DNA of 64,000 nucleotides from Candidatus Poseidoniaceae archaeon (lineage in GTDB: Archaea; Thermoplasmatota; Poseidoniia; Poseidoniales; Poseidoniaceae). Both the position numbers and the translations under genes were made by a program. The notes under the pieces are model-generated. The model ran no database searches and was not told the DNA's origin. It saw nothing but the letters and a program-made list of their open reading frames with translations. This document shows, in pieces, positions 18,464 to 29,796 of this stretch (positions within the stretch are counted from its first letter, which is position 1; each line of letters starts with the position of its first letter). The stretch lies in contig CASIAW010000001.1 of the NCBI GenBank assembly GCA_949372875.1, positions 62,001 to 126,000 of the forward strand. Reading direction: 5' to 3'.

Positions 18464-19756
18464 TCATTGAACCGACATGAAACCATCATGGTCTACACCC
18501 CAAGGCAAGGTGGCATCAAAACCAACCTTTGCAGTTAGGCCATCGGAGTCACGGGAAGGGTCCAAAGAACTCCCCTTCTGATTTGATAGAATCACTGTGT
18601 CTGTGTCCGGTTGCCAACGGGTCACCATTGCCCATTCGACACGAACGGGGTCTCCGATGTCGATATCTTCATCAACAACTGTAACCATCTTCATGCTTCT
18701 ATGTCCTGCTAAGGCTGCTTCAATGGCACGAATTGGATCGTCTTTGTTCACCTTTCTGATCTTGATTACGGCTGCTAACCACCCGCACCCTCCTTCAGTC
18801 ATGTGGACATCAATGCAGTCGCATACTTCACTCACAGCGGATTTAATGGTTGGTGCACGAGGCAGACCCATGAGCGTCTTGTGTTCAGCCTCTCCTGGAA
18901 TGAGTGCGTGGAAAATCGGGTTGTCTCGGTGAATCACACCATCAATTTCAATCACGGGCTCTTGACGAACATCATCGACCGTTCCTGTAATGTCGACATA
19001 GGGTCCTTCGTCGTCGTCTTCATTCGTAATTCGTCCCCAGAGGACATACTCTGCATCAGCAGGTGCAAGTATACCGTTTGGCATACGTGTTAATCGAAGT
19101 GGCTTGTTGTAGAGTTTTTCGTGTAAGGCAGCAGCGATTGTCAACTCGTCGATGTTCTCATCAAAAGACATAGCAGCAGCCAGTAAGACCACAGGGTCTG
19201 GAGCGTTGACAATAGCAATATCTACCTCTCTTCCCTCTTTACGTGCATTCATTGTCATGGTTCGCAAATGCCTTGGAACCAATCGAACCACCAGGTGGTT
19301 TGAGTCTCTCACGAACTGCCGGTGGAAGGACATATTTCGAATGCCATTATCTTCAGCAATGATGACGCTTGCTGAAGAATAACGGCCACGGTCTTGAGGC
19401 CAATGGTGAGGGATTGGGAGTTTGGTGATGTCAATACTCTGTTGGAGGTTTTCAAAGCACTCAGCTTCTGATGCATCAACGATTACTGGTTCGCTTGGGT
19501 TTTCCATTGCCCACCCTAATGTGTCAATGTATTCTTCCGGTGTGATTCCAATCGCCTCGCATAACCTGTCGCGTGTCAAAATATTAATCGCTGCACGATG
19601 ACCTGGAGATTCAGAGATATTGGTAAACAAAGTAAGATCGTGATGACTCGCTCGTGAGTGTTCCCACATGCCGTGGATGAGGCTTACAGGGTTGGGTTCT
19701 TCGGTTGCTGCACCGAGGTGGTCACGAAAGGCCATATTCTTGCGAAATGAACTCAT
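18464..19756 (-). CDS. UbiD-family decarboxylase, probable anhydromevalonate phosphate decarboxylase
   Basis: A 430-residue UbiD-family prenyl-FMN-dependent decarboxylase. Visible marks are SSASVIIAEDNGIRNMSFHR, VRLVPRHLRTM, the catalytic-domain stretch NAPDPVVLLAAAMSF and ADAEYVLWGRI. In archaea one UbiD subgroup converts trans-anhydromevalonate 5-phosphate to isopentenyl phosphate in the modified mevalonate route. Isopentenyl phosphate kinase and IDI-GGPPS lie 4-6 kb away, which makes that role likely but not proven. The ATG at 19756 (MSSFRKNMAFRDHL) fits the family N-terminus; 27 more residues are open upstream. It would need UbiX-made cofactor; ubiX is not in the window. Confidence 0.82.
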   Translation of the reverse strand: MSSFRKNMAFRDHLGAATEEPNPVSLIHGMWEHSRASHHDLTLFTNISESPGHRAAINILTRDRLCEAIGITPEEYIDTLGWAMENPSEPVIVDASEAECFENLQQSIDITKLPIPHHWPQDRGRYSSASVIIAEDNGIRNMSFHRQFVRDSNHLVVRLVPRHLRTMTMNARKEGREVDIAIVNAPDPVVLLAAAMSFDENIDELTIAAALHEKLYNKPLRLTRMPNGILAPADAEYVLWGRITNEDDDEGPYVDITGTVDDVRQEPVIEIDGVIHRDNPIFHALIPGEAEHKTLMGLPRAPTIKSAVSEVCDCIDVHMTEGGCGWLAAVIKIRKVNKDDPIRAIEAALAGHRSMKMVTVVDEDIDIGDPVRVEWAMVTRWQPDTDTVILSNQKGSSLDPSRDSDGLTAKVGFDATLPWGVDHDGFMSVQ

Positions 19757-19886
19757 CGCTTGAACCTTGTTTAAGACATACAAGGTAATTCGGCTTAATT
19801 CGCCGATTAAGGTTGGTTCACACCCATCGATTTTCACCTTCTCTTGTCGTAATGGTCGATGTTATCTACGCAGGCTTTGAGGGTCG

Positions 19887-19895
19887 TTTTAAATA
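19887..19895 (+). promoter_or_regulatory. TATA box for rpsL-rpsG
   Basis: TTTTAAATA lies 42-50 bases before the S12 ATG in the divergent gap after the UbiD-type gene. Archaeal TATA boxes sit about 25 bases before the transcript start, which predicts a short leader beginning near 19920. Confidence 0.55.
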
Positions 19896-19936
19896 GGGGA
19901 TTCAAGTCGGCAGAGTGCTTCAATGCGGTGATTATG

Positions 19937-20365
19937 ATGGGTAGAGGACTCTTCGCAGGTGCTAAAATGGCAAAGGACCGTCAAAAGTTTCGTTGGTCGG
20001 ACCGCCGATACAAGAAGCGAATGCTCAAGTCACGAGCAAAGCACGACCCTCTTGCGGGCTCTACACAAGCCAAAGGTATCGTCATTGAAAAGGTCGGTAT
20101 TGAGGCTAAACAGCCGAACTCAGGTATCCGTAAGGCAGTGAAGATTTCACTCATCAAGAACGGTAACAAACTCACTGCTTTCGCTCCTGGCGATGGTGCA
20201 ATTAACTTCATTGATGAACACGATGAAGTGATGGTCGAGGGTATTGGTGGACGCATGGGTCGTTCATACGGAGACATTCCCGGTGTCCGCTACAAAGTCA
20301 TTCAAGTCAACGGCGTTTCTCTCAATGAAATGGTCCGTGGCCGAAAAGAAAAGCCAATCCGCTGA
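19937..20365 (+). CDS. rpsL: 30S ribosomal protein S12
   Basis: Decoding-centre protein of the small subunit. [20 protein letters not shown] is the archaeal/eukaryal S23/S12 N-terminus, and [20 protein letters not shown] contains the universally conserved PNS loop. [20 protein letters not shown] closes the fold. Length is 142 residues, normal for archaea. The second of two adjacent ATGs (19937) is chosen. It leads the classic rpsL-rpsG-fusA cluster. Confidence 0.96.
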
Positions 20366-20374
20366 GGTGTAAAT

Positions 20375-21013
20375 ATGTCCGAATCAGAAATGGTAGATGA
20401 AGAAGAACAAGAAGAAGTCGTCGTTGAAGACGTCCGCCCTATTGCTGGAATCGGAACACTCGTTTTTGGTAAGTGGGATGCATCTGCAATCACGTGTAAA
20501 GATCCTGGACTTGCACCTTACATCAACCTCACAACTGTGGGTGTTCCTCACACCGGTGGCCGACATGCCAACGCATGGTTCGGAAAAGCCAAGTTGTCTG
20601 TCGTTGAGCGCTACATCAACAAACTCATGCGTACTGGACCTTACACTGGTAAGAAGCAAGGCGCAATGAAGGCCTTCGAGTCTGCTCTTGACACAATTGC
20701 TGAAAAGACTGGTGAAAACCCCCTTCAAATCTTCGTTAACGCTATTTGTAACGCTGCGCCTATGGAAGAAATCACTCGTATCAAGTTCGGTGCAGTGTCT
20801 CAACCGAAAGCAGTTGATTCATCACCTTCTCGACGTCTGGATGTTGCTCTTCGCAATCTTGCTAAAGGTGCTCAACAAGGGACTCACAAGTCAAAGCGAA
20901 CTTTGACAAACTGTGTCATCAACGAGATTTCTAAGGCCGCATCTGATGATGCTACTTCATTCGCAGTTGCGAAGAAGGAAGAATTAGAGCGTATCGCCTC
21001 TTCTGCTCGCTGA
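20375..21013 (+). CDS. rpsG: 30S ribosomal protein S7
   Basis: Primary 16S rRNA-binding protein of the small-subunit head. NLTTVGVPHTGGRHANAWFG, NKLMRTGPYTGKKQGA and NPLQIFVNAICNAAPMEEIT match archaeal S7. A strongly acidic N-terminal extension (DEEEQEEVVVED) precedes the fold. Length is 212 residues. It follows rpsL by 9 bases. Confidence 0.95.
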   Translation: MSESEMVDEEEQEEVVVEDVRPIAGIGTLVFGKWDASAITCKDPGLAPYINLTTVGVPHTGGRHANAWFGKAKLSVVERYINKLMRTGPYTGKKQGAMKAFESALDTIAEKTGENPLQIFVNAICNAAPMEEITRIKFGAVSQPKAVDSSPSRRLDVALRNLAKGAQQGTHKSKRTLTNCVINEISKAASDDATSFAVAKKEELERIASSAR

Positions 21014-21110
21014 GCATTTCGAGACGCTTTTCTATCGAACTTACATGATGCATGCGTACGCCTTTTTTGCTTCACTGTCTGCACCAGCCGTATCTTCGTT
21101 GCGAGTCACT

Positions 21111-21120
21111 TAAGAACCCC
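21111..21120 (+). promoter_or_regulatory. TAAGAACCCC element before fusA
   Basis: It sits about 42 bases before the EF-2 start and matches the element before psmA (TAAGAACCCTC). It suggests fusA has its own transcription start in addition to readthrough from rpsG. This is inference from the repeat of the motif. Confidence 0.35.
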
Positions 21121-21161
21121 TTTCCGGTGGCCGATATTGACGAGAAGTCACGGGTGATTCC

Positions 21162-23369
21162 ATGGGCCGAAAGGAAGACAATATTAACAAAGCAACAGAA
21201 GTCATGCACATTTTACCACAAATTCGTAATTTATGTATTGCTGCACACATTGACCACGGAAAAACGACACTCTCTGACAACTTGATTGCAGGTGCGGGAA
21301 TGATGTCCAGCGACCTAGCTGGATCCGCTCGTGTTCTCGATTTCGATGAGCAAGAGTCCGCACGTGGAATTACAATTAACGCAGCATCAGCCTCGATGGT
21401 TCACGCTGTCGAAGGAACAGACTACCTCATCAATCTCATCGATACACCAGGTCACGTAGACTTTGGTGGTGACGTGACTCGTGCCATGCGTGCAGTTGAT
21501 GGATGTTTCATTCTCGCTTGTGCTGTTGAAGGACCAATGCCGCAAACTGAAACTGTTGTTCGCCAAGCACTCAAAGAAAAGGTCAAGCCTGTTCTTTTCA
21601 TCAATAAGGTCGACCGTCTTATCAACGAATTACAAGTTACTCCTGAAGACATGATGGCTCGTTTTACAGAAACCATCAAGAAAGTCAACCGACTCATTTC
21701 TCAATTCGCTCCTGAAGAGTTCAAGAAAAGCTGGCAGGTTAGCGTCATGGACGGAACTGTTGCTTTCGGAAGCGCATATCACAACTGGGGTATTACCATT
21801 CCATACATGCAGAAGTCCGGAGTTTCAATGACTGAAATTTTTGAATACTGTAACAATGAAGACCAGAAGACTTTGGCTACCAAAGCACCAGTCCACGAAG
21901 TTCTTCTCGACATGGCAGTTACCAAACTACCAGGTCCAGTCCAAGCTCAACCTTACCGTATCCCGAACATCTGGACCGGTGACCTTGACTCTGAAATTGG
22001 AAAGGCTATGGTCAGTTGTGACCCAGAAGCAGAACTTGCAATGATGATTACGAAGATTTGGATGGATCCACACGCTGGTGAAGTTGCAGTAGGACGTATC
22101 TATTCTGGTTCGATTTCTCAAGGTGAATCAGTCTATGCGATTGGTGCTGCAAAGGCAGAACGTGTTCAACAAGTGAGCATGATGGTTGGTGGAGACCGAA
22201 TCACAGTCCCTAAGGTCGTTGCAGGAAACATTGCAGCACTGACTGGAATCCGTTCAGCCGCTGCTGGTGTTACGCTCTCACGAGACAAAGACTTCACGCC
22301 GTTTGAAGCAATTCGACACTACTCGGACCCCGTAGTTACTGTCGCTGTTGAGCCAAAGAGTATGAAGGACCTTCCAAAGTTCATCGATGCTCTTCGTTCA
22401 CTTGCTAAGGCAGATGCATCGCTCCAAGTTACTACCAACCAAGAAACCGGTGAAGCATTGCTCGCAGGTATGGGTGAATTGCACTTGGAAATTACAGTCT
22501 ACCGGATTGAAGAAGAACAGAACATCAAGGTCAGCGTGAGCCCACCTATTGTTGTCTACCGTGAAGGTATCCAAGGCACCAACCGTGGAAATGCGTTCGA
22601 AGGTAAATCTCCGAACCGTCACAACCGTTTCTTCTTTGAAATTGAACCTCTCACACCTGAAGTTGTCGCAGCGCTCCGTGCTGGAGATCTCGGTTCAGGA
22701 ACCATCCGTCCGAATGACGCAAAGGAAACTGGACGAAAGTTCGGGGAACTCGGAATGGATAAAGATTTGATGCGTAAAATTTACGCTATCAACGGTTCAA
22801 ATGTCCTCGTAAACGACACAAAGGGTATTCAAGGACTTCACGAAACTCGTGAATTGATTATTGAGGCATTCAATGGTGTTTGTTCAAAGGGACCAATCGC
22901 AGATGAGCCTGTTCAAGGAATGTTTGTTCGACTTGTCGATGCAAAGCTACACGAAGACGCTATCCATCGTGGCCCTGCACAAACAATTCCAGCAGTTCGA
23001 AACGGTATTAAGGGCGCAATGATGCGTGCCCGAACCGTTCTACTCGAACCTATGCAGAAAGCCTTCGTATCAGTTCCAAATGACTGGCTTGGGCAGGTCA
23101 CTCGTGAAGTCACCAACCGCCGTGGCATCATTGAAGATATGCCTTCAGAAGGCGAAGTTACTACAGTTGTTGGTGTTTTGCCAATTGCTGAGACATTCGG
23201 TTTCTCCAACGATATTCGTGCCGCATCTCAAGGTCGTGCTGTTTGGAATACTGAAAATCTCGGATTCGAAATGCTCCCACCTCAATTGTTTGACAAGGTC
23301 GTAGGCCAAATTAGAACACGCAAGGGTCTGAAGCCAGAACCTTACCCAGAGTCATATTACTCAGAGTGA
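21162..23369 (+). CDS. fusA: Elongation factor 2
   Basis: Ribosomal translocase GTPase, 735 residues. G1 is AAHIDHGKTTLSDNL, G2 is ESARGITINAA, G3 is DTPGHVDFGGD and G4 is INKVD. GMGELHLEITVYRI and the domain IV loop LHEDAIHRGPAQTIPA follow, the latter with the histidine modified to diphthamide. Dph6 at 9358 supports the presence of the modification. MGRKEDNINKATEVM is the usual archaeal N-terminus. Confidence 0.97.
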   Translation: MGRKEDNINKATEVMHILPQIRNLCIAAHIDHGKTTLSDNLIAGAGMMSSDLAGSARVLDFDEQESARGITINAASASMVHAVEGTDYLINLIDTPGHVDFGGDVTRAMRAVDGCFILACAVEGPMPQTETVVRQALKEKVKPVLFINKVDRLINELQVTPEDMMARFTETIKKVNRLISQFAPEEFKKSWQVSVMDGTVAFGSAYHNWGITIPYMQKSGVSMTEIFEYCNNEDQKTLATKAPVHEVLLDMAVTKLPGPVQAQPYRIPNIWTGDLDSEIGKAMVSCDPEAELAMMITKIWMDPHAGEVAVGRIYSGSISQGESVYAIGAAKAERVQQVSMMVGGDRITVPKVVAGNIAALTGIRSAAAGVTLSRDKDFTPFEAIRHYSDPVVTVAVEPKSMKDLPKFIDALRSLAKADASLQVTTNQETGEALLAGMGELHLEITVYRIEEEQNIKVSVSPPIVVYREGIQGTNRGNAFEGKSPNRHNRFFFEIEPLTPEVVAALRAGDLGSGTIRPNDAKETGRKFGELGMDKDLMRKIYAINGSNVLVNDTKGIQGLHETRELIIEAFNGVCSKGPIADEPVQGMFVRLVDAKLHEDAIHRGPAQTIPAVRNGIKGAMMRARTVLLEPMQKAFVSVPNDWLGQVTREVTNRRGIIEDMPSEGEVTTVVGVLPIAETFGFSNDIRAASQGRAVWNTENLGFEMLPPQLFDKVVGQIRTRKGLKPEPYPESYYSE

Positions 23370-23374
23370 GACGT

Positions 23375-23836
23375 ATGCAAGGCTCAATTGTGGGCCTTTT
23401 TGCAGCCCCTTTAGGGGGGGTTCCAAAACCAAAGGTGCAAACCTTGCACGTAACGGAAAACGGTTGTACTGGTGACAAACAAAACGATTTGAAACATCAC
23501 GGTGGTCCAAACCGGGCTGTTTGTTTATTCAGTTCAGAAGTCCTTACCACACTCACACATGAAGGAAATCCGATATTTCCTGGTTCAGTCGGTGAAAATG
23601 TATTGGTTCAAGGAATCGACTGGGATTCAGTTCAGATAGGAACTCAATTCCATTTTAAAAATGTGATTTTAGAAATAACATCAGACGCTCCTCCATGCCG
23701 AACAATCAAAGCCTCTTTTACGAATGATGAATTTACTCGAATTTCGGTGAAGAAATATCCGTTTTCAACACGTTGGTACGCCAAAGTGATTCAAGCGGGT
23801 GAACTCATTACCGGTGAAAGTGCAACCATCAACTGA
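23375..23836 (+). CDS. MOSC domain protein
   Basis: A stand-alone 153-residue MOSC (molybdenum cofactor sulfurase C-terminal) domain. GCTGDKQNDLKHHGGPNRAV has the expected HGG-P-AV motif, FPGSVGENVLVQGID follows, and SDAPPCRTIKASF carries the conserved cysteine. MOSC proteins bind Moco or sulfur-carrying intermediates. The ATG at 23375 is used; a GTG at 23366 overlapping the fusA stop is possible. Molybdenum use is supported by fdhD and the oxidoreductase at the right edge. Confidence 0.85.
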   Translation: MQGSIVGLFAAPLGGVPKPKVQTLHVTENGCTGDKQNDLKHHGGPNRAVCLFSSEVLTTLTHEGNPIFPGSVGENVLVQGIDWDSVQIGTQFHFKNVILEITSDAPPCRTIKASFTNDEFTRISVKKYPFSTRWYAKVIQAGELITGESATIN

Positions 23837-25586
23837 TTCGCTTAAGTTGGAAGTCGGTGAGTTCTCGCAATGCTCTCATTGCAGGACCTTGTGGGATTCT
23901 GTCAAGACAAGCATGTGCTTTTGCATGGTATTCAGTGGCTCTTTTCTTGGCATAATCAATCGAACCGATTTTACCAAGAGCTTCGAGGGCGTTTTGAATC
24001 GATTCTTCGTCAGCAGTTTCTCCTTTGCCAAGTGCTGCTAGAAGAGTCGTCTTGTCCTCAGAGTCAGGTTGCGATAATGCATGGATAACCATCAGTGTAC
24101 GTTTTCCCTGGGCGACATCTGAGCCTGCTGGTTTGCCTGACACTGCGGAATCTGAAAGAACGTCAATGAGATCATCCATTAATTGGAAGCATAGACCGAC
24201 TGCAAGCCCCCAATCTGCCATGCAATCAATGGTTTCTTGATCTGCACCAGCCATACGAGCACCAATTTCAGCACATGTCAAGAACATGACAGCGGTTTTA
24301 CCTTCAATCATCTCGATGTAGTCCTCCTCCGAAACAGCGAGTTCATCTTCAAACTCGATATCCATCTGTTGGCCTTCGCTGACTCTACGAACCATCCATG
24401 CAATTCTATTGACAAGAGGTGCAACATCGGCATCTTCCAGACCTTCTGCTTGGACCAAGCGCTCGAATGCAATAGCGAGCATAGCATCACCGGCATTGAT
24501 TGCAGTTGGAAGGTCAAATTCAATGTGAACTGCATTTCTTCCTCGACGAACATCATCGTCATCCATGATATCATCGTGAACGAGTGTGAAATTATGAACC
24601 GTTTCAATAGCAGCGCCTACATCAAGCATTCCAGAGTGCGTATCACCTACCGCTTTACCGACAAGCCAAGGCAATGTTGCGCGAAGTCGCTTACCGCCAC
24701 CGTGGATTAAATGCGTCATTGCTGATGCGAGTCGTGTATGACGTGAAGCCATCAAACTGTTCATAATTCGCTTTTCGACGAGTGGTTTAACTTCAAGAAT
24801 CGAGATGTCTAAGCCAGCTCCTTCTGCTTCCGGAAGCATGTGTGTTACATCGCCCATGTCATGGATTTTATCATCTGCCAGCTCGGCTAATGCAGAACTG
24901 TTTCCAGCCGCACCCCACCATTCTTCAGTCATAATAAGCGCAGCAATGCAACGGAACCACGGAGCAATAGAGCCATTTTCCGGTTTCTCAGCAATCAGCA
25001 TCTCTTCGAGCTCTTCATACGTCACCCAAGTCACTTCCGAGACTTCATTTGGATTAGGGTTGAGTTCAACATCGACCTTAGCAACCAAGATGTGATCAAC
25101 TTCTCGCTCAATCCATGTCTCATTCATTCGAGAGGAATACCGCATTTTCGTCATGAAGTGAAAGTCATCAGTCGAAAGTGATGAGGGTGAGATTCCGAGT
25201 TCCTGCTCCATTTTACGTATGGCAGCATTTTTCACACCGAGTGCATTTTCCTCAATCAACTCGCTTTCTGAGTGCAAAGGATGTGAGCAACACGAGTTTG
25301 CCCAGACACCCGGGAATGTGACTTTGTCATCTGCTCTCCGCTGAAGTAAAAGTCTGTTTTGAGAGTCAAAAAGGAGTACACTGAAGGCTCTGTGCAATGC
25401 TCCAGCATCCCTGTGTGCAGATATCTTTGAGATTGGACCTAGAACCTCATCGGTTTCGCTGACCATGATTATTGATTCAGCCATAAGTTGCGACTGAATA
25501 GAATCTGCACCAATCGTATTGAGCAATTCTTGTTCAGAGTCGGTGAGTTCAACACTCGGAACGTCGTTTATGTCGTAGCCTGCCAT
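23829..25586 (-). CDS. Fused type 1 IPP isomerase and GGPP/polyprenyl synthase
   Basis: One 585-residue chain with two isoprenoid enzymes. Residues about 35-225 are a Nudix-fold type 1 isopentenyl diphosphate isomerase: HRAFSVLLFDSQNRLLLQRR, ANSCCSHPLH with the catalytic cysteine near 90, NAAIRKMEQELGI, and WIEREVDHI with the acidic site. Residues about 265-585 are a trans-prenyltransferase: GGGKRLRATLP near 296, first aspartate-rich motif DDIMDDDDVRRG at 338 and second DDLIDVLSD at 471, plus KT at 430. The isomerase makes DMAPP, and the synthase condenses it with IPP to GGPP for archaeal lipids; fusion would couple the two. The IPK gene lies 99 bases upstream on the same strand. It overlaps the MOSC gene tail by 8 bases. 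Confidence 0.92.
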   Translation of the reverse strand: MAGYDINDVPSVELTDSEQELLNTIGADSIQSQLMAESIIMVSETDEVLGPISKISAHRDAGALHRAFSVLLFDSQNRLLLQRRADDKVTFPGVWANSCCSHPLHSESELIEENALGVKNAAIRKMEQELGISPSSLSTDDFHFMTKMRYSSRMNETWIEREVDHILVAKVDVELNPNPNEVSEVTWVTYEELEEMLIAEKPENGSIAPWFRCIAALIMTEEWWGAAGNSSALAELADDKIHDMGDVTHMLPEAEGAGLDISILEVKPLVEKRIMNSLMASRHTRLASAMTHLIHGGGKRLRATLPWLVGKAVGDTHSGMLDVGAAIETVHNFTLVHDDIMDDDDVRRGRNAVHIEFDLPTAINAGDAMLAIAFERLVQAEGLEDADVAPLVNRIAWMVRRVSEGQQMDIEFEDELAVSEEDYIEMIEGKTAVMFLTCAEIGARMAGADQETIDCMADWGLAVGLCFQLMDDLIDVLSDSAVSGKPAGSDVAQGKRTLMVIHALSQPDSEDKTTLLAALGKGETADEESIQNALEALGKIGSIDYAKKRATEYHAKAHACLDRIPQGPAMRALRELTDFQLKRIS

Positions 25587-25685
25587 GTGAACCCCTGCTT
25601 CAATGGATTCGCGCTCGCTACATGAAGAGTTCTCTGTATTAAGTTGGAGAATATTGGTCTTTCTATTAACAAAAAGGGGCGCAGT

Positions 25686-26510
25686 TCACTTTTTGGCAGT
25701 AACAACAGTTCCACGAACTGGTTTTCCGAGCATAGCGCCTAAAACCCGTTCTGGTATTCCGCCATTGATCATCACCACTTGGACTCCTTTTGAAGCAACA
25801 AAAGAACCGCGAGAGGCCTTTAATCCGATACCTCCAGTTACGTCAATGTCTGATTCATGAGTTCCTTCAAACGAAATGTCTGGGGACCAATTTTCAATCA
25901 AATCTTGCTCATTTGCTTGTTCAGGAGGTACTCGTAAGAGTCCATCAACCCCTTTGATGGCAAATACAAGTCTCTTCACGTTTGGTAATTCAAGCGATAA
26001 TCTGACGACGAGGTCATCTCCAGAGAGTATTCCGAATTCTCGAGAATCTTCAACTTCGACTACGTCACCAAATGTCACATGTATCTTGGATACGTCTTGG
26101 GATGAAAAACGGTCAAGGTTTCCGATGAAAGACGGTCCAGTATTCTTAGCCCATTGATGCGGTGGATGGATTAGAGGCTTCAGATTTTTCTTGAGCAGTG
26201 CTTCACAAACATGAGAATTGAGTTCAAGCATTTCTTTTCGAACAACTTCCATTGCTTCATGTTGGGTGGAACAAATTCCATCGTTCTCAAAAATATGGTC
26301 TGGAAGGTATCCCTCGTTGAGACGCCAATGCTTAGAGCGGAGGTGCCCGAATGAACCAGCGCCATGTACGAGAATAACATCGAATCCGTGTTCTATGCAG
26401 GTAGCTACACATGCTGCGAGTTGCTCCAAGACTTCCAAATCGGGTGTACAGAGGGAGGTTTTGTCTGTGATGAGGCCGCCACCCCATTTGATGACAACCC
26501 GTTCGCGCAT
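25686..26510 (-). CDS. ipk: Isopentenyl phosphate kinase
   Basis: Amino acid kinase-fold enzyme that phosphorylates isopentenyl phosphate to IPP. RVVIKWGGGLITDK is the N-terminal nucleotide loop, LVHGAGSFGHLRSKHW carries the histidine specific to IPKs, and IKGVDGLLRVPP and DVTGGIGLKASRG complete the fold. Length is 274 residues. The ATG at 26510 (MRERVVIKWGG) fits family starts better than one at 26543. IPK is the final step of the archaeal mevalonate route and pairs logically with the UbiD-type gene at 18464. Confidence 0.92.
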   Translation of the reverse strand: MRERVVIKWGGGLITDKTSLCTPDLEVLEQLAACVATCIEHGFDVILVHGAGSFGHLRSKHWRLNEGYLPDHIFENDGICSTQHEAMEVVRKEMLELNSHVCEALLKKNLKPLIHPPHQWAKNTGPSFIGNLDRFSSQDVSKIHVTFGDVVEVEDSREFGILSGDDLVVRLSLELPNVKRLVFAIKGVDGLLRVPPEQANEQDLIENWSPDISFEGTHESDIDVTGGIGLKASRGSFVASKGVQVVMINGGIPERVLGAMLGKPVRGTVVTAKK

Positions 26511-26614
26511 GAATACAGCGAAGGTGAAATGGCTCAAGAGCATGCCCCTCCATTTTCACACAAATGATTGTTTTCTCACCAAGCATTCATGACCCACGGT
26601 GTGAACCAACCATT

Positions 26615-26950
26615 ATGTCCGAGGGTCCGTCATTGAGTGACTTTATGCGCCATCTCCAGGCCGTTCTTGAAGAATCAGAAGAAATCGGAGACCGAATCGA
26701 ACGTGATTCACGCCAACTCCAAATTGAATCTGCCATCCAAGAGGCTATCATTTTCGGAAACCGATTCCGTGAACTTCAAGAAAAAGGCATTGACCCACTT
26801 CATATTGTTCTGCCAAACTCTCGGGAAGATGCGACTCAACACGTTTCCAAATTAGAAACTCTCAACGTCGGACACAGTAACTGTGGCAGTTGCGGTGCTC
26901 GATTAGAAAATGATCTTGACTTCTGCCCATCGTGTGGGGAAAAGCGATAA
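26615..26950 (+). CDS. Small protein with C-terminal zinc ribbon
   Basis: A 111-residue protein: a helical N-terminal part (LQAVLEESEEIGDRIERDSR, ESAIQEAIIFGNRF) and a C-terminal ribbon CGSCGARLENDLDFCPSCGE. No known family name. It is divergent from ipk and ends flush against kptA. The start is the ATG at 26615. Confidence 0.65.
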   Translation: MSEGPSLSDFMRHLQAVLEESEEIGDRIERDSRQLQIESAIQEAIIFGNRFRELQEKGIDPLHIVLPNSREDATQHVSKLETLNVGHSNCGSCGARLENDLDFCPSCGEKR

Positions 26951-27673
26951 TCACTCTTCTTCTGACTCTTCAAGTTCCCATTGTGCGATGATTTCCAAAA
27001 CCATTGGGTCATCAGACTCAATCCTGTAGAGGTATTCACCTGGCATTTCATCAACCAAGAAAACGGTCTTACCTGCTCGATAGATGATGTGCCCATCAGC
27101 AATTGCCCGGACAGTGTCAACTTCGAGAATTGCTGGACGGTTGATTTGAGAGGAGCCTTTGTATCCTGCCTCCATAGCATTGGAAATACTTCGGGAAAGG
27201 TGAATGTGCTTTCGGTCTCCGGTCGTGATTCCTAATTCCATGATTGTCTCAACCTGGCCTTCTTCACATGGCCAATAGAGTGCCTCTGGGATTTGGTCTG
27301 TAGGTAGGTCAAGTTCCAGTTCAATAGAGTGCCCATATGTGGCACGAATCATTTCACCCTCAACCTGGTATCTTCCTTTGTCATCAGAATTAGCGATTGC
27401 AGAAAAATGCCAGCCTCGTAGCCAGTGATAGTTTCGACGTTGCTTACCAATTGCTTCTGAAAGTTCTCGACTGTTAACCCAGCCGTTGATATCCATCTCG
27501 ACATTGAATTTTTCAGGAGCGTGTCGCAAAACGAGTGCGAGCATTCGACCAAGCGAATTTGCTTCACGGTCACTCATGATGAATTTGCCTTCTTCGTTGC
27601 AGATATGGCAATTTGGGCCAGTGAAGAATCCGTTGTTTATTTTGCAAGAACGTTCTCGACATTGTCGTAGCAT
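26951..27673 (-). CDS. kptA: tRNA 2'-phosphotransferase Tpt1/KptA
   Basis: Removes an internal RNA 2'-phosphate with NAD+. The N-terminus has a Cys-rich zinc site (CRERSC then CHIC), a feature of archaeal KptA. Then come MLALVLRHAPEKFNV with the first Arg-His pair, IRATYGHSIEL, HIHLSRSISNAMEAGYK and IIYRAGKTVFLVDEMPGEYL. The 240-residue length suits an archaeal member with zinc finger. The ATG at 27673 keeps all four cysteines. In archaea the natural substrate is uncertain, since splicing there leaves no 2'-phosphate. Confidence 0.9.
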   Translation of the reverse strand: MLRQCRERSCKINNGFFTGPNCHICNEEGKFIMSDREANSLGRMLALVLRHAPEKFNVEMDINGWVNSRELSEAIGKQRRNYHWLRGWHFSAIANSDDKGRYQVEGEMIRATYGHSIELELDLPTDQIPEALYWPCEEGQVETIMELGITTGDRKHIHLSRSISNAMEAGYKGSSQINRPAILEVDTVRAIADGHIIYRAGKTVFLVDEMPGEYLYRIESDDPMVLEIIAQWELEESEEE

Positions 27674-27769
27674 ATTTTGAGGGGAGCGGGGCGTGTTCTT
27701 AGACTCTACGGGTGCTTGCAACGGTTTTGATGCCCAAATTGACCGACTTACTCAAGTGCTGGTCCCTCT

Positions 27770-27784
27770 TGGGGGTGTCATGGT
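27770..27784 (+). promoter_or_regulatory. Start-site leader TGGGGGTGTCATGGT of thiolase gene
   Basis: The 15 bases spanning the thiolase start codon are identical to those spanning the mqnD start (49244-49258). In both, GGTCCC lies shortly upstream and can pair with the G run, forming a small hairpin over the ribosome-binding region. A regulatory role is inference. Confidence 0.3.
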
Positions 27785-28955
27785 CGATGTTGCCGTTATT
27801 GGTGCTGGTCAAACAAAGTATGGTAACCACCAACTTGGACTGAAAGGAATGTGGGCCGAAGCCGCAGAAAATGCATTTTCCAGTGTAGACAAAGATTTCG
27901 ATCCACGCCAAGTCGATGAAGCATTCATTGGAAGCGTGGCTTTTGGTGGTGCACAACTTGGTAATACTGCTGCCCTACTCACCGAACATTCAGGCCTGGA
28001 TGGTATTCCAGTCCGCCGTGTGGAAAATGCGTGTGCTTCCTCTGGATTTGCTCTTCGAGATGCATGGATGGCCATCAAGAGCGGCCAAGCAGATATTGTC
28101 GTAGCGGGTGGGATTGAGAAAATGAATGACCTCTCTGCTGAACGTAAGCGCTTTTGGCTCGGCGTATCTGGTGACACTGAATGGGAGCGACTTGCCGGAT
28201 TGACTTTCCCGGGCACCTATGCATTGATGGCTCGACGTCATTTCCACGAACACGCATCATCACATGACGACCTTGTTCACATTAGCGTCAAAAACCACAT
28301 GCATGGATTTGAGAATGAACAGGCGCACATCCGCAAGCAAGTCTCTTTTGAGAAGGCAGAGAGTGGATTTATGGTTGCAGATCCTCTCACCCTGTATGAT
28401 TGCTGTCCAACATCCGATGGAGCGTCATGCGTCATTCTCGCCGCAGATCACGTCGTTCAACAATTTACTGACGATCCTGTTTGGGTTCGTTCTTCTGGAG
28501 CTGCATCAGATAGGCTAGCTCTTCATGACCGACCTTCAATTACGCAATTACTTGCAACTCAAAAAGCATCGCAGTTGGCTTACTCTGCAGCCGGAATCAC
28601 CTCCAACGATGTTGATTTTGCCGAAGTTCACGACTGCTTTACTATTGCCGAATTAATGGCAACAGAGGATTTAGGCTTTGCAGCACATGGCCAAGGTGGC
28701 GTTTTTGCTCGTGAAGGTCGAGGTCGACGAAATGAAGGTTCTGTTTGTATAAATCCAAGTGGTGGTCTCAAATCAAAAGGGCATCCTCTCGGTGCAACAG
28801 GTACTGGTCAGGCAGTTGAAGTTTTCAAGCAATTACGAGGTTCAGTTGAATCTTCTCGACAAGTTCGGGATGCAGAGATTGGGTTAACACACAATGTAGG
28901 CGGTTCTGGTGCCACATGCGCAGTTCATATCTTTGGGAGAGATCGCAATGATTGA
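27780..28955 (+). CDS. Archaeal thiolase (acetyl-CoA acetyltransferase type)
   Basis: A 391-residue thiolase-fold enzyme. VENACASSGFALRDAW carries the nucleophilic cysteine, AEVHDCFTIAELMA the first histidine region, and GGLKSKGHPLGATGTGQ the second. It belongs to the archaeal SCP2-type thiolases that sit beside an OB-fold (DUF35) protein and pass acetoacetyl-CoA to HMG-CoA synthase. The ATG at 27780 opens VDVAVIGAGQTKYG, the usual start. The next gene overlaps by 8 bases and encodes the OB-fold partner. HMG-CoA synthase is not seen here. Confidence 0.88.
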   Translation: MVDVAVIGAGQTKYGNHQLGLKGMWAEAAENAFSSVDKDFDPRQVDEAFIGSVAFGGAQLGNTAALLTEHSGLDGIPVRRVENACASSGFALRDAWMAIKSGQADIVVAGGIEKMNDLSAERKRFWLGVSGDTEWERLAGLTFPGTYALMARRHFHEHASSHDDLVHISVKNHMHGFENEQAHIRKQVSFEKAESGFMVADPLTLYDCCPTSDGASCVILAADHVVQQFTDDPVWVRSSGAASDRLALHDRPSITQLLATQKASQLAYSAAGITSNDVDFAEVHDCFTIAELMATEDLGFAAHGQGGVFAREGRGRRNEGSVCINPSGGLKSKGHPLGATGTGQAVEVFKQLRGSVESSRQVRDAEIGLTHNVGGSGATCAVHIFGRDRND

Positions 28956-29796
28956 ACAGCACCCTTGGAAAGGCTATTTGGTGGTATTGAATCAAGATTC
29001 ACTTTTGATTCAGTCTCCATATATGTATGAGGAAACAATCGTCTATGGTCCCGATAGCGATTCTACAACGATGGCTATTGCTGGACTACAATTTATGAAA
29101 CAAAGAGGACATGAAATCGATTTTGTTCACCTCCCTGATACAATCGATGCTGCTACAGTCTATCTGGCAACCAGTGTTGATTCTATGTCACGCAATGATG
29201 AACTTGATTTTGATGCAGTTAAGTGGGATTTTTTGGATGGTGACGAAGCCACACTCGTTTTGTCAAAGACTGGCTTAGATTCCTATGATTTTGATACTCC
29301 AATCGGTTCTGAAATAATCGATAGTCAATTCCACATGGACATACAAGAGGCTTGGATTCGTGAACGTGCTGAAAGTAATGTGTCCCAGGGAGCATACGTC
29401 TCAAAGTCAATGTATCTTGAAGGTGCCCTAGCACGGTTATCGTTGGCATCTCAAAAAAGTGATGAAAAACTTATTTGGCCACCGCGCCAACTTGATTCAT
29501 CCGGTCAACGTATCCCTTCTGGAACCCATTCGCTTACAGGCGAGGCTACTGTAGAGTCGTGGACAAAACTCAGTGCCGCTGGTGCACCTTCGGAATTCTC
29601 ACTCAGGGCACCAATTCTTGGAGGTATCCAAACAGTTTTAGTTCGCTTTGAACAAGGTCCACGTGGTGTTTTCCTCGTCTGTGATGATGTTGATTATGCA
29701 CCCCACATCGGCGATAAGGTTCATTTCACTGTTCGTAGAATCTACGCTCAAGAGGGTATCATACGGTATGGGTTGAAAGCACTCCCTCTCCCATGA
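28948..29796 (+). CDS. DUF35/OB-fold thiolase partner with long N-terminal extension
   Basis: A 282-residue protein. The C-terminal 110 residues match DUF35 acyl-CoA-associated OB-fold proteins: WPPRQLDSSGQRIPSGTHSL, GEATVESWTKLS, and HIGDKVHFTVRRIY with the final strand. The rubredoxin-like CxxC knuckle usual before the OB fold is missing. The first 170 residues (for example TIVYGPDSDSTTMAIAGLQF) are not recognised. In methanogens the OB-fold protein bridges thiolase and HMG-CoA synthase and shares a CoA tunnel, and the overlap with the thiolase gene supports the same here. The start is the ATG at 28948. Confidence 0.75.
   Translation: MIEQHPWKGYLVVLNQDSLLIQSPYMYEETIVYGPDSDSTTMAIAGLQFMKQRGHEIDFVHLPDTIDAATVYLATSVDSMSRNDELDFDAVKWDFLDGDEATLVLSKTGLDSYDFDTPIGSEIIDSQFHMDIQEAWIRERAESNVSQGAYVSKSMYLEGALARLSLASQKSDEKLIWPPRQLDSSGQRIPSGTHSLTGEATVESWTKLSAAGAPSEFSLRAPILGGIQTVLVRFEQGPRGVFLVCDDVDYAPHIGDKVHFTVRRIYAQEGIIRYGLKALPLP

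Follow-up and report, generated by a model that had tools for sequence, protein, structure and literature searches.

A probable anhydromevalonate phosphate route with a single-chain, swivel-last aconitase X in a Poseidoniaceae archaeon

We analyzed a 64,000-nucleotide stretch of Poseidoniaceae DNA (the window) together with its genome and relatives, and we conclude, with a probability of about 0.9, that isopentenyl diphosphate (IPP) is made by the archaeal anhydromevalonate phosphate route, with a dehydratase that is a single-chain aconitase X (AcnX), most simply fused once in the ancestor of the class. HMG-CoA would be converted to mevalonate by HMG-CoA reductase (HMGR) and mevalonate to mevalonate 5-phosphate by mevalonate kinase (MVK); the AcnX dehydratase would then yield trans-anhydromevalonate 5-phosphate, which the window UbiD, with prenylated FMN from UbiX, would turn into isopentenyl phosphate. 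The window isopentenyl phosphate kinase (IPK) would form IPP, and the window IDI-GGPPS would form DMAPP and geranylgeranyl diphosphate. We infer these substrates from the presence of the genes, the clade of the UbiD, the conserved catalytic residues, the clustering of the genes in relatives and the lack of an MVD-like match in the genome. The preliminary description of this DNA had proposed the same route and is supported: the findings that it named as telling against it (a UbiD grouping with aromatic or menaquinone decarboxylases, no AcnX genes, or a full classical or Thermoplasma-type pathway) did not materialize. A 2024 survey (PMC11052028) calls the archaeal mevalonate route dominant in archaea, and its presence here is thus expected.

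The window genes concerned lie within 11 kb:
18464..19735, minus strand: UbiD-family decarboxylase, probable trans-anhydromevalonate phosphate decarboxylase (frame open to 19837)
23829..25586, minus strand: fusion of type I IPP isomerase and prenyl (geranylgeranyl) diphosphate synthase, IDI-GGPPS (TIGR02150, PF00348)
25686..26543, minus strand: IPK (NF040647)
about 27780..28955, plus strand: thiolase, possibly the acetoacetyl-CoA thiolase of the upper pathway (frame open from 27693; PRK06064)
about 28948..29796, plus strand: possible DUF35/ChsH2-like OB-fold partner of the thiolase (PF01796 below cut-off)

The UbiD matched PF01977 (169.6 bits), PF20696 (103.9) and TIGR00148 (305.9; cut-off, 244.85); translation more likely begins at an internal ATG (19735, MAFRDHL), and the 423-aa orthologue L086 starts with the same residues. 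The IDI-GGPPS matched TIGR02150 (156.2; cut-off, 105.8) and PF00348 (220.4), and the IPK, which matched NF040647 (136.3 bits; cut-off, 120), contains GAGSFGH, a motif that we take to be meaningful for IPK. The thiolase scored above the cut-off for PRK06064 (437.6 versus 420); its nearest equivalog is the acetyl-CoA acetyltransferase model NF053570 (397, below the cut-off of 600). UbiD, IPK, IDI-GGPPS and thiolase were thus found where the preliminary description had placed them. The OB-fold partner that it added is plausible but weak, because the sole domain match, PF01796, lies below cut-off (19.2 versus 27.1 bits) and is found in two of the four members scanned, and because the single-sequence model, with a pLDDT of 31, gave no usable fold. 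By its coordinates, the start of this gene overlaps the stop codon of the thiolase gene.

Next, we looked into the clade of the window UbiD. The tree placed 44 archaeal AMPD-like rows on one side of a branch (99/99, and in 100% of 200 bootstrap trees), anchored by Thermococcus, Methanocaldococcus and Methanosarcinaceae; the A. pernix AMPD was absent from the 80 loci returned and was not included. The clade of the window UbiD was set apart from all 20 other UbiD rows, menaquinone and aromatic decarboxylases among them (99/99), and the window UbiD was separated from the menaquinone-type UbiD of its own genome. As a point against our reading, the UbiDs of MGII and the sister family were not sisters (clade test with L083 left out, p-AU 1.5e-07). 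An Arg-Glu-Glu/Asp triad is catalytic in prFMN decarboxylases, and R173, E277 and D282 (numbered in the 457-aa frame) were present in 44/44 AMPD-like rows. We rejected the Asp of EGP(F/Y)xD as an AMPD marker, since it also occurs in 14 of the 20 other rows; Arg185, Asp288, Arg291, Met323 and Ser381 separate AMPD better (44/44 AMPD-like rows, at most 2/20 others). An AcnX large-subunit gene lay in the same locus in 17 of the 80 loci from the UbiD motif scan (HMM built without L115, L082 and L075), and among 34 genomes drawn from those loci, 33 had AcnX. The window UbiD is a probable trans-anhydromevalonate phosphate decarboxylase.

We then searched the window's own genome for the rest of the pathway. 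It encodes UbiX (TIGR00421, 196.5; cut-off, 108.9), an MVK above its model cut-off, HMGR and AcnX (PF04412, 315.9 bits), the swivel domain being part of the AcnX chain; UbiX and AcnX were genes that the preliminary description had named for searching. MVD-like PF22700 gave no match in this genome at E ≤ 0.001. Five GHMP kinase matches were found, one being the MVK and the other four nearest, below cut-offs, to galactokinase, fucokinase/heptose kinase, shikimate kinase and pantoate kinase. Neither the PF22700 search nor the GHMP kinase matches revealed a classical diphosphomevalonate decarboxylase or haloarchaeal phosphomevalonate decarboxylase in this genome, and by PF22700 it showed no Thermoplasma-type mevalonate 3-kinase or bisphosphate decarboxylase. 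We take families f1 and f2 to be Poseidoniales (MGII), the sister family f3 to be MGIII and f27 to be Thermoplasmatales. The pattern was reversed in the 12 genomes of f27, where PF22700 was over cut-off in 12/12 and AcnX in 0/12. Weak PF22700 matches in 18 of 37 class genomes (best E 2.7e-6) count against the route; two were over cut-off only when neighboring pieces were counted, and those in f3 genomes G003 and G092 fell within the clustered MVK. The genes for UbiX, MVK, UbiD and fused AcnX formed one cluster in 10/10 f3 regions, which had been chosen for UbiX and swivel on one contig; they came from the 13 f3 genomes that gave a UbiX-like match (that of G161 being a 129-aa piece).

The AcnX of this class departs from published architectures, which have either two subunits or the swivel first. 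Among 60 genomes searched, 56 had a swivel match (4 had none), and in 54 of the 56, AcnX and swivel shared one frame of 546 to 636 aa, with the catalytic domains first and the swivel last (1-2-3-linker-4); the exceptions were G103 and G161 (frames of 303 and 238 aa). This recurrence led us to reject an assembly error. A supposed bacterial fusion of the same order, from Cupriavidus (L261), was also rejected, since it consists of two ORFs. In a tree built without L110 (truncated), L236 (containing X) and L097 (close to L222), the fused proteins formed a 100/100 clade, for which one origin of the fusion suffices; the clade lies on a long stem (1.18). Most simply, the large subunit would have fused to the swivel subunit once, in the class ancestor, giving the order 1-2-3-linker-4. 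The clade joined one archaeal row (L112; 95/85) where long branches meet, and the archaeal/bacterial split received only 51/94. As far as our literature searches reach, a single-chain, swivel-last AcnX is new.

We compared the catalytic residues of the fused proteins with those of type IIb AcnX (TkAcnX, 7CNR/7CNS, and ApPMDh), using alignments of 21 fused rows (fetched L229 and L214 were left out). As in type IIb, Cys was present at sites A, 1 and 2 and no site-C Cys was found (21/21), the catalytic Ser of domain 4 was kept (21/21) and the GVS phosphate loop was present in 20/20 rows covering that stretch. Gly48-Val49-Ser50, Asn79, Ser130 and Lys361 were likewise kept in the readable rows; Thr63 could not be matched. 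Unlike type IIb, the protein is one polypeptide (1-2-3-linker-4), not two subunits. Its long stem tells against a type IIb function, as do the replacement of Pro80 of the phosphate site by Ser/Ala and the loss from domain 4 of the NKETET stretch seen in stand-alone small subunits. An Asn53-to-Thr change is common in two-subunit forms too. Judged by these residues, the fused AcnX would work like type IIb, but as a single chain, it falls outside type II as defined. Its order matches that of mitochondrial aconitase/AcnA (order as given in PMC8184944), which belongs to another superfamily branch; the likeness most simply reflects a separate fusion.

How much weight the neighborhood itself can bear is a separate question. 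The UbiD, IPK, IDI-GGPPS and thiolase genes are not an operon: UbiD is divergent from S12-S7-EF-2, and these genes, with a MOSC gene, lie on the opposite strand between UbiD and IDI-GGPPS. All of UbiD, S12, S7, EF-2, IDI/GGPPS and IPK occurred together in 8/8 related loci annotated (six selected for UbiD and IPK on one contig), with IPK and IDI-GGPPS adjacent and codirectional in every one; the thiolase and its partner were near the isoprenoid genes in only 3/8 and absent from the other five. Among 34 genomes of the order, by score band, AMPD-type UbiD was missing in 2 and IPK in 3, which tells against the route, although the three genomes lacking either are drafts. In the 31 with both, not selected for it, UbiD lay within 8 kb of IPK on one contig in 24 and on a separate contig in 7. 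We rejected this nearness as strong evidence in itself, since ribosomal genes intervene and AcnX, the key partner, is encoded about 460 kb away, which makes the neighborhood alone weak evidence. Somewhat more likely than not, the 11-kb stretch is no functional unit, its lipid genes staying together only as flanks of the conserved S12-S7-EF-2 genes. The opposite strands, the intervening ribosomal genes and the location of AcnX, MVK, UbiX and HMGR elsewhere fit this explanation, as does the patchy thiolase pair, whereas the constant IPK/IDI-GGPPS pairing and the 24 close UbiD-IPK pairs speak against it.

Two further explanations concern substrates. The intervening ribosomal genes would also suit an aromatic or quinone-precursor acid decarboxylase that has no isoprenoid role and lies near IPK by chance. 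The UbiD family is substrate diverse; the AlphaFold model of the window UbiD (pLDDT 91.7) has HmfF (6h6v; TM 0.88/0.91) as its nearest solved fold, and AnInD is the row nearest the AMPD-like clade, joining it on a long branch (95/79). The genome's other, menaquinone-type UbiD adjoins a UbiA-like protein. (We take HmfF to be a furoic/aromatic decarboxylase.) We nevertheless consider this extremely improbable, given the 99/99 split described above, the clustering of the relatives' UbiD with AcnX, MVK and UbiX and the single UbiD match in each of three f3 genomes searched. We also consider it very unlikely that the fused AcnX acts as a dehydratase of the hydroxyproline type, with an unrecognized enzyme handling mevalonate 5-phosphate. 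Other single-chain AcnX proteins are hydroxyproline dehydratases (PMC8184944), the WAESNAV motif is as in type I, the best NCBIfam match, far short of its cut-off at 215.7 versus 700, is to a hydroxyproline dehydratase model, and phmmer scores are nearly equal (TkPMDh, 152.3 bits; hydroxyproline dehydratase, 146.3 for the wild type and 151.0 for a mutant chain). However, type I (cis-3-hydroxyproline dehydratase), although also a single chain, has the reversed order 4-1-2-3 and a [2Fe-2S] Cys pattern with a site-C Cys and without the site-1 Cys, traits that the fused AcnX does not show, and it has GCI in place of the GVS of the fused rows. Moreover, the f3 fused AcnX clusters with MVK, UbiD and UbiX, and the window's genome has no MVD-like match.

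Judged from sequence, the anhydromevalonate phosphate route is the probable source of isoprenoid units in an uncultured lineage that we read as Marine Group II plankton; the same group is noted in PMC7852524 as seemingly without glycerol-1-phosphate dehydrogenase. The AcnX family gains a third architecture. The known phosphomevalonate dehydratase is oxygen sensitive, and the rebuilt route worked in bacterial cells only near-anaerobically (PMC10040528); the fused AcnX is a candidate single-gene, perhaps oxygen-robust, phosphomevalonate dehydratase. One rather unlikely extension is that in Poseidoniia, the swivel-last fusion, in aconitase A order, and the changes in domain 4 and the phosphate site might protect the labile [4Fe-4S] cluster and thereby allow the ATP-saving route to operate in oxygenated surface seawater, a setting in which the known two-subunit form would be oxygen sensitive. 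The set of MVK, AcnX, UbiD with UbiX, and IPK would be shared with the route of A. pernix and Methanosarcina mazei, but here the dehydratase is one chain, the genes are scattered and HMG-CoA synthase is nearest to haloarchaeal/bacterial models, not archaeal ones.

Sequence evidence leads us to predict, with a probability of roughly 0.92, that the anhydromevalonate phosphate route runs in this genome. This main reading of the preliminary description was supported by the clade of the window's UbiD-family protein, by the presence of aconitase X (AcnX, a putative phosphomevalonate dehydratase), mevalonate kinase and UbiX, and by the lack of any match resembling diphosphomevalonate decarboxylase (MVD). 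As a pathway, the route is ordinary for archaea: the archaea-type route is described as dominant over 229 archaeal genomes and all 138 orders in the accessible part of PMC11052028, and its presence here is thus expected. The notable feature is the single-chain dehydratase rather than the pathway itself. In a search of mostly open-access literature, neither a fused archaeal AcnX nor the lower mevalonate pathway of the class Poseidoniia turned up as the subject of a paper.

The source genome, which we take to belong to Poseidoniales (Marine Group II, MGII), comprises 2.16 Mb in 13 contigs (completeness 94.9%); the 64-kb window lies on its contig C1. The UbiD, isopentenyl phosphate kinase (IPK), IDI-GGPPS (IPP isomerase/geranylgeranyl diphosphate synthase fusion) and thiolase genes were all found where the preliminary description had placed them. 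The small gene after the thiolase is likewise present; its claimed OB-fold identity came down to a sub-threshold match with no usable model. The relevant genes are as follows.

Window: UbiD, start probably the ATG at 19735, divergent from the genes for S12, S7, EF-2 and a MOSC protein
Window, after these: IDI-GGPPS and IPK on the minus strand; then RNA 2'-phosphotransferase, thiolase and its small partner
C5:132521-134653 (L001:961-3093): second UbiD, with a long C-terminal extension, adjoining a gene that we take, from its sequence, to encode a UbiA-like prenyltransferase
C5:51634-53211 (L220:1635-3212): HMG-CoA synthase

The UbiD, S12, S7, EF-2, IDI/GGPPS and IPK genes kept the same order in 8/8 annotated related loci, six of which had been selected for carrying UbiD and IPK on the same contig; the thiolase/OB pair occurred in only three of the eight. 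Without such selection, 31 genomes of the order had both UbiD and IPK, and in 24 of these the two shared a contig and lay within 8 kb of each other. The UbiD-to-IPK block is stable, yet it is no operon, and the key partner AcnX lies about 460 kb away, at 544 kb on C1. In two of the eight annotated loci (L184:4561-6227 and L193:4593-6292), IDI and GGPPS are separate adjoining ORFs, unlike the one fused gene.

Next, a 64-row tree was built to place the window UbiD. Forty-four archaeal rows resembling anhydromevalonate phosphate decarboxylase (AMPD), including Thermococcus, Methanocaldococcus, Methanolobus, Methanoregula and Bathyarchaeota, were split from the rest by a single branch (99/99, present in 100% of 200 bootstrap trees). 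The window protein fell among them, apart from its own genome's second UbiD (711 aa), which is menaquinone-type (TIGR03701, 459 bits, under the cut-off of 496). None of the 20 other rows joined this group; AnInD, on a long branch, came closest to it. A scan with the motif EGP(F/Y)(V/L)D was the source of 17 of the 44 rows, for which the motif is therefore no evidence; the remaining 27 were obtained otherwise. That scan yielded 80 loci: an AcnX large-subunit gene occurred in 17 and UbiX in 9, with neither in the Thermococcus- or Methanomassiliicoccales-titled loci; when 34 of the 80 were given to a genome search, AcnX was present in 33/34 genomes. The structural model of the window UbiD (pLDDT 91.7) matched HmfF with TM scores of 0.88/0.91.

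Elsewhere in the genome we found mevalonate kinase (TIGR00549, 190.8 versus a cut-off of 163.05), UbiX (TIGR00421, 196.5 versus 108.9), HMG-CoA reductase (347 bits) and AcnX (315.9 bits), the last a 605-aa chain that also contains the swivel domain. The remark that no MVD was seen now extends genome-wide, with nothing MVD-like matching at E ≤ 0.001. Of five GHMP kinase matches, one was the mevalonate kinase, and the other four came closest to galactokinase, fucokinase/heptose kinase, shikimate kinase and pantoate kinase. Weak MVD-like matches appeared in 18/37 genomes of the class, and two of them were traced to mevalonate kinase. Seven genomes of the phylum sample (G004, G090, G001, G013, G043, G022 and G077) had strong MVD-like matches (158 to 212 bits) without AcnX over cut-off, possibly a haloarchaea-type route outside Thermoplasmatales.

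We compared 21 fused AcnX rows with the solved T. kodakarensis enzyme. The cysteines at sites A, 1 and 2 and the catalytic serine of domain 4 were kept in 21/21, the phosphate-loop GVS in all 20 rows covering it, and Asn79 wherever readable; Ser130 and Lys361 were also kept. No fused row had Cys at site C, whereas the three AcnX type I rows had a second Cys there, Ser or Asn at site 1, and GCI. Pro80 (to Ser/Ala) and the NKETET stretch of domain 4 were altered in the fused rows. Overall similarity does not settle whether the protein is T. kodakarensis-type or a hydroxyproline dehydratase, the scores being nearly equal (152 versus 146 to 151 bits). The aerobe A. pernix has the two-subunit form, which argues against oxygen tolerance requiring fusion. 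Its enzyme, in which Cys122, Cys297 and Cys356 bind a [4Fe-4S] cluster, is oxygen-sensitive, and the rebuilt route functions only near-anaerobically in bacterial cells (accessible part of PMC10040528). An AcnX with the domain order 1-2-3-4, as in the fused proteins, is absent from the superfamily architectures in the accessible part of PMC8184944. There, mitochondrial aconitase and AcnA are given as 1-2-3-linker-4, AcnB and AcnX type I as 4-linker-1-2-3, and AcnX type II as separate subunits.

The swivel domain exceeded its cut-off in 56/60 class genomes, in 54 of them within an open frame of 546 to 636 aa, and a search of the 60 with this domain showed no stand-alone small subunit. In the phylum sample outside the class, complete large-subunit matches lay in frames of 389 to 495 aa, with one outlier of 668 aa accompanied by a small subunit in its own 129-aa ORF. 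Among 34 named-record genomes searched, a long AcnX frame occurred in only two (G200 and G201), both with the MGII gene order. Eighteen fused rows formed one clade in the AcnX tree (100/100, 100% of bootstrap trees) on a long stem (1.18), so that one fusion suffices.

The sister family f3, which we take to be MGIII, accounts for 21 of the 60 class genomes searched. UbiX, mevalonate kinase, UbiD and fused AcnX stood side by side in 10/10 fetched regions (L222-L229, L236, L237), those of f3 genomes with UbiX and the swivel domain on one contig. These compact clusters have UbiX divergent from the other three genes, and the UbiD frame of L237 is split in two. Three further f3 genomes had a UbiX-like match (in one case a piece of 129 aa) with the swivel match on a different contig or absent; each of the three f3 genomes in the UbiD search had a single UbiD match. 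Elsewhere in the phylum, UbiD stood with an AcnX large-subunit gene and a distinct small-subunit gene in 8/8 regions picked for UbiD-AcnX closeness (L076-L081, L084, L085), with mevalonate kinase in seven and UbiX in three.

The MGII and f3 proteins grouped together in the AcnX tree but not in the UbiD tree, where the AMPD-type UbiDs (window UbiD versus L222, L223, L224, L225, L228 and L097) were not sisters. Constraining them to one clade, a group named on taxonomy though after the tree was seen, cost 85 log-likelihood units (p-AU 1.5e-07). Because the fused AcnX is nonetheless one clade, these trees suggest that AMPD was exchanged or replaced in one of the two lineages. In place of the archaeal type, MGII carries an HMG-CoA synthase closest to haloarchaeal/bacterial models (in this genome NF041302 with 247 bits and TIGR01835 with 233 bits, both under cut-off). 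The archaeal type exceeded its cut-off in 20/21 f3 genomes and in 0/39 of the remaining class genomes.
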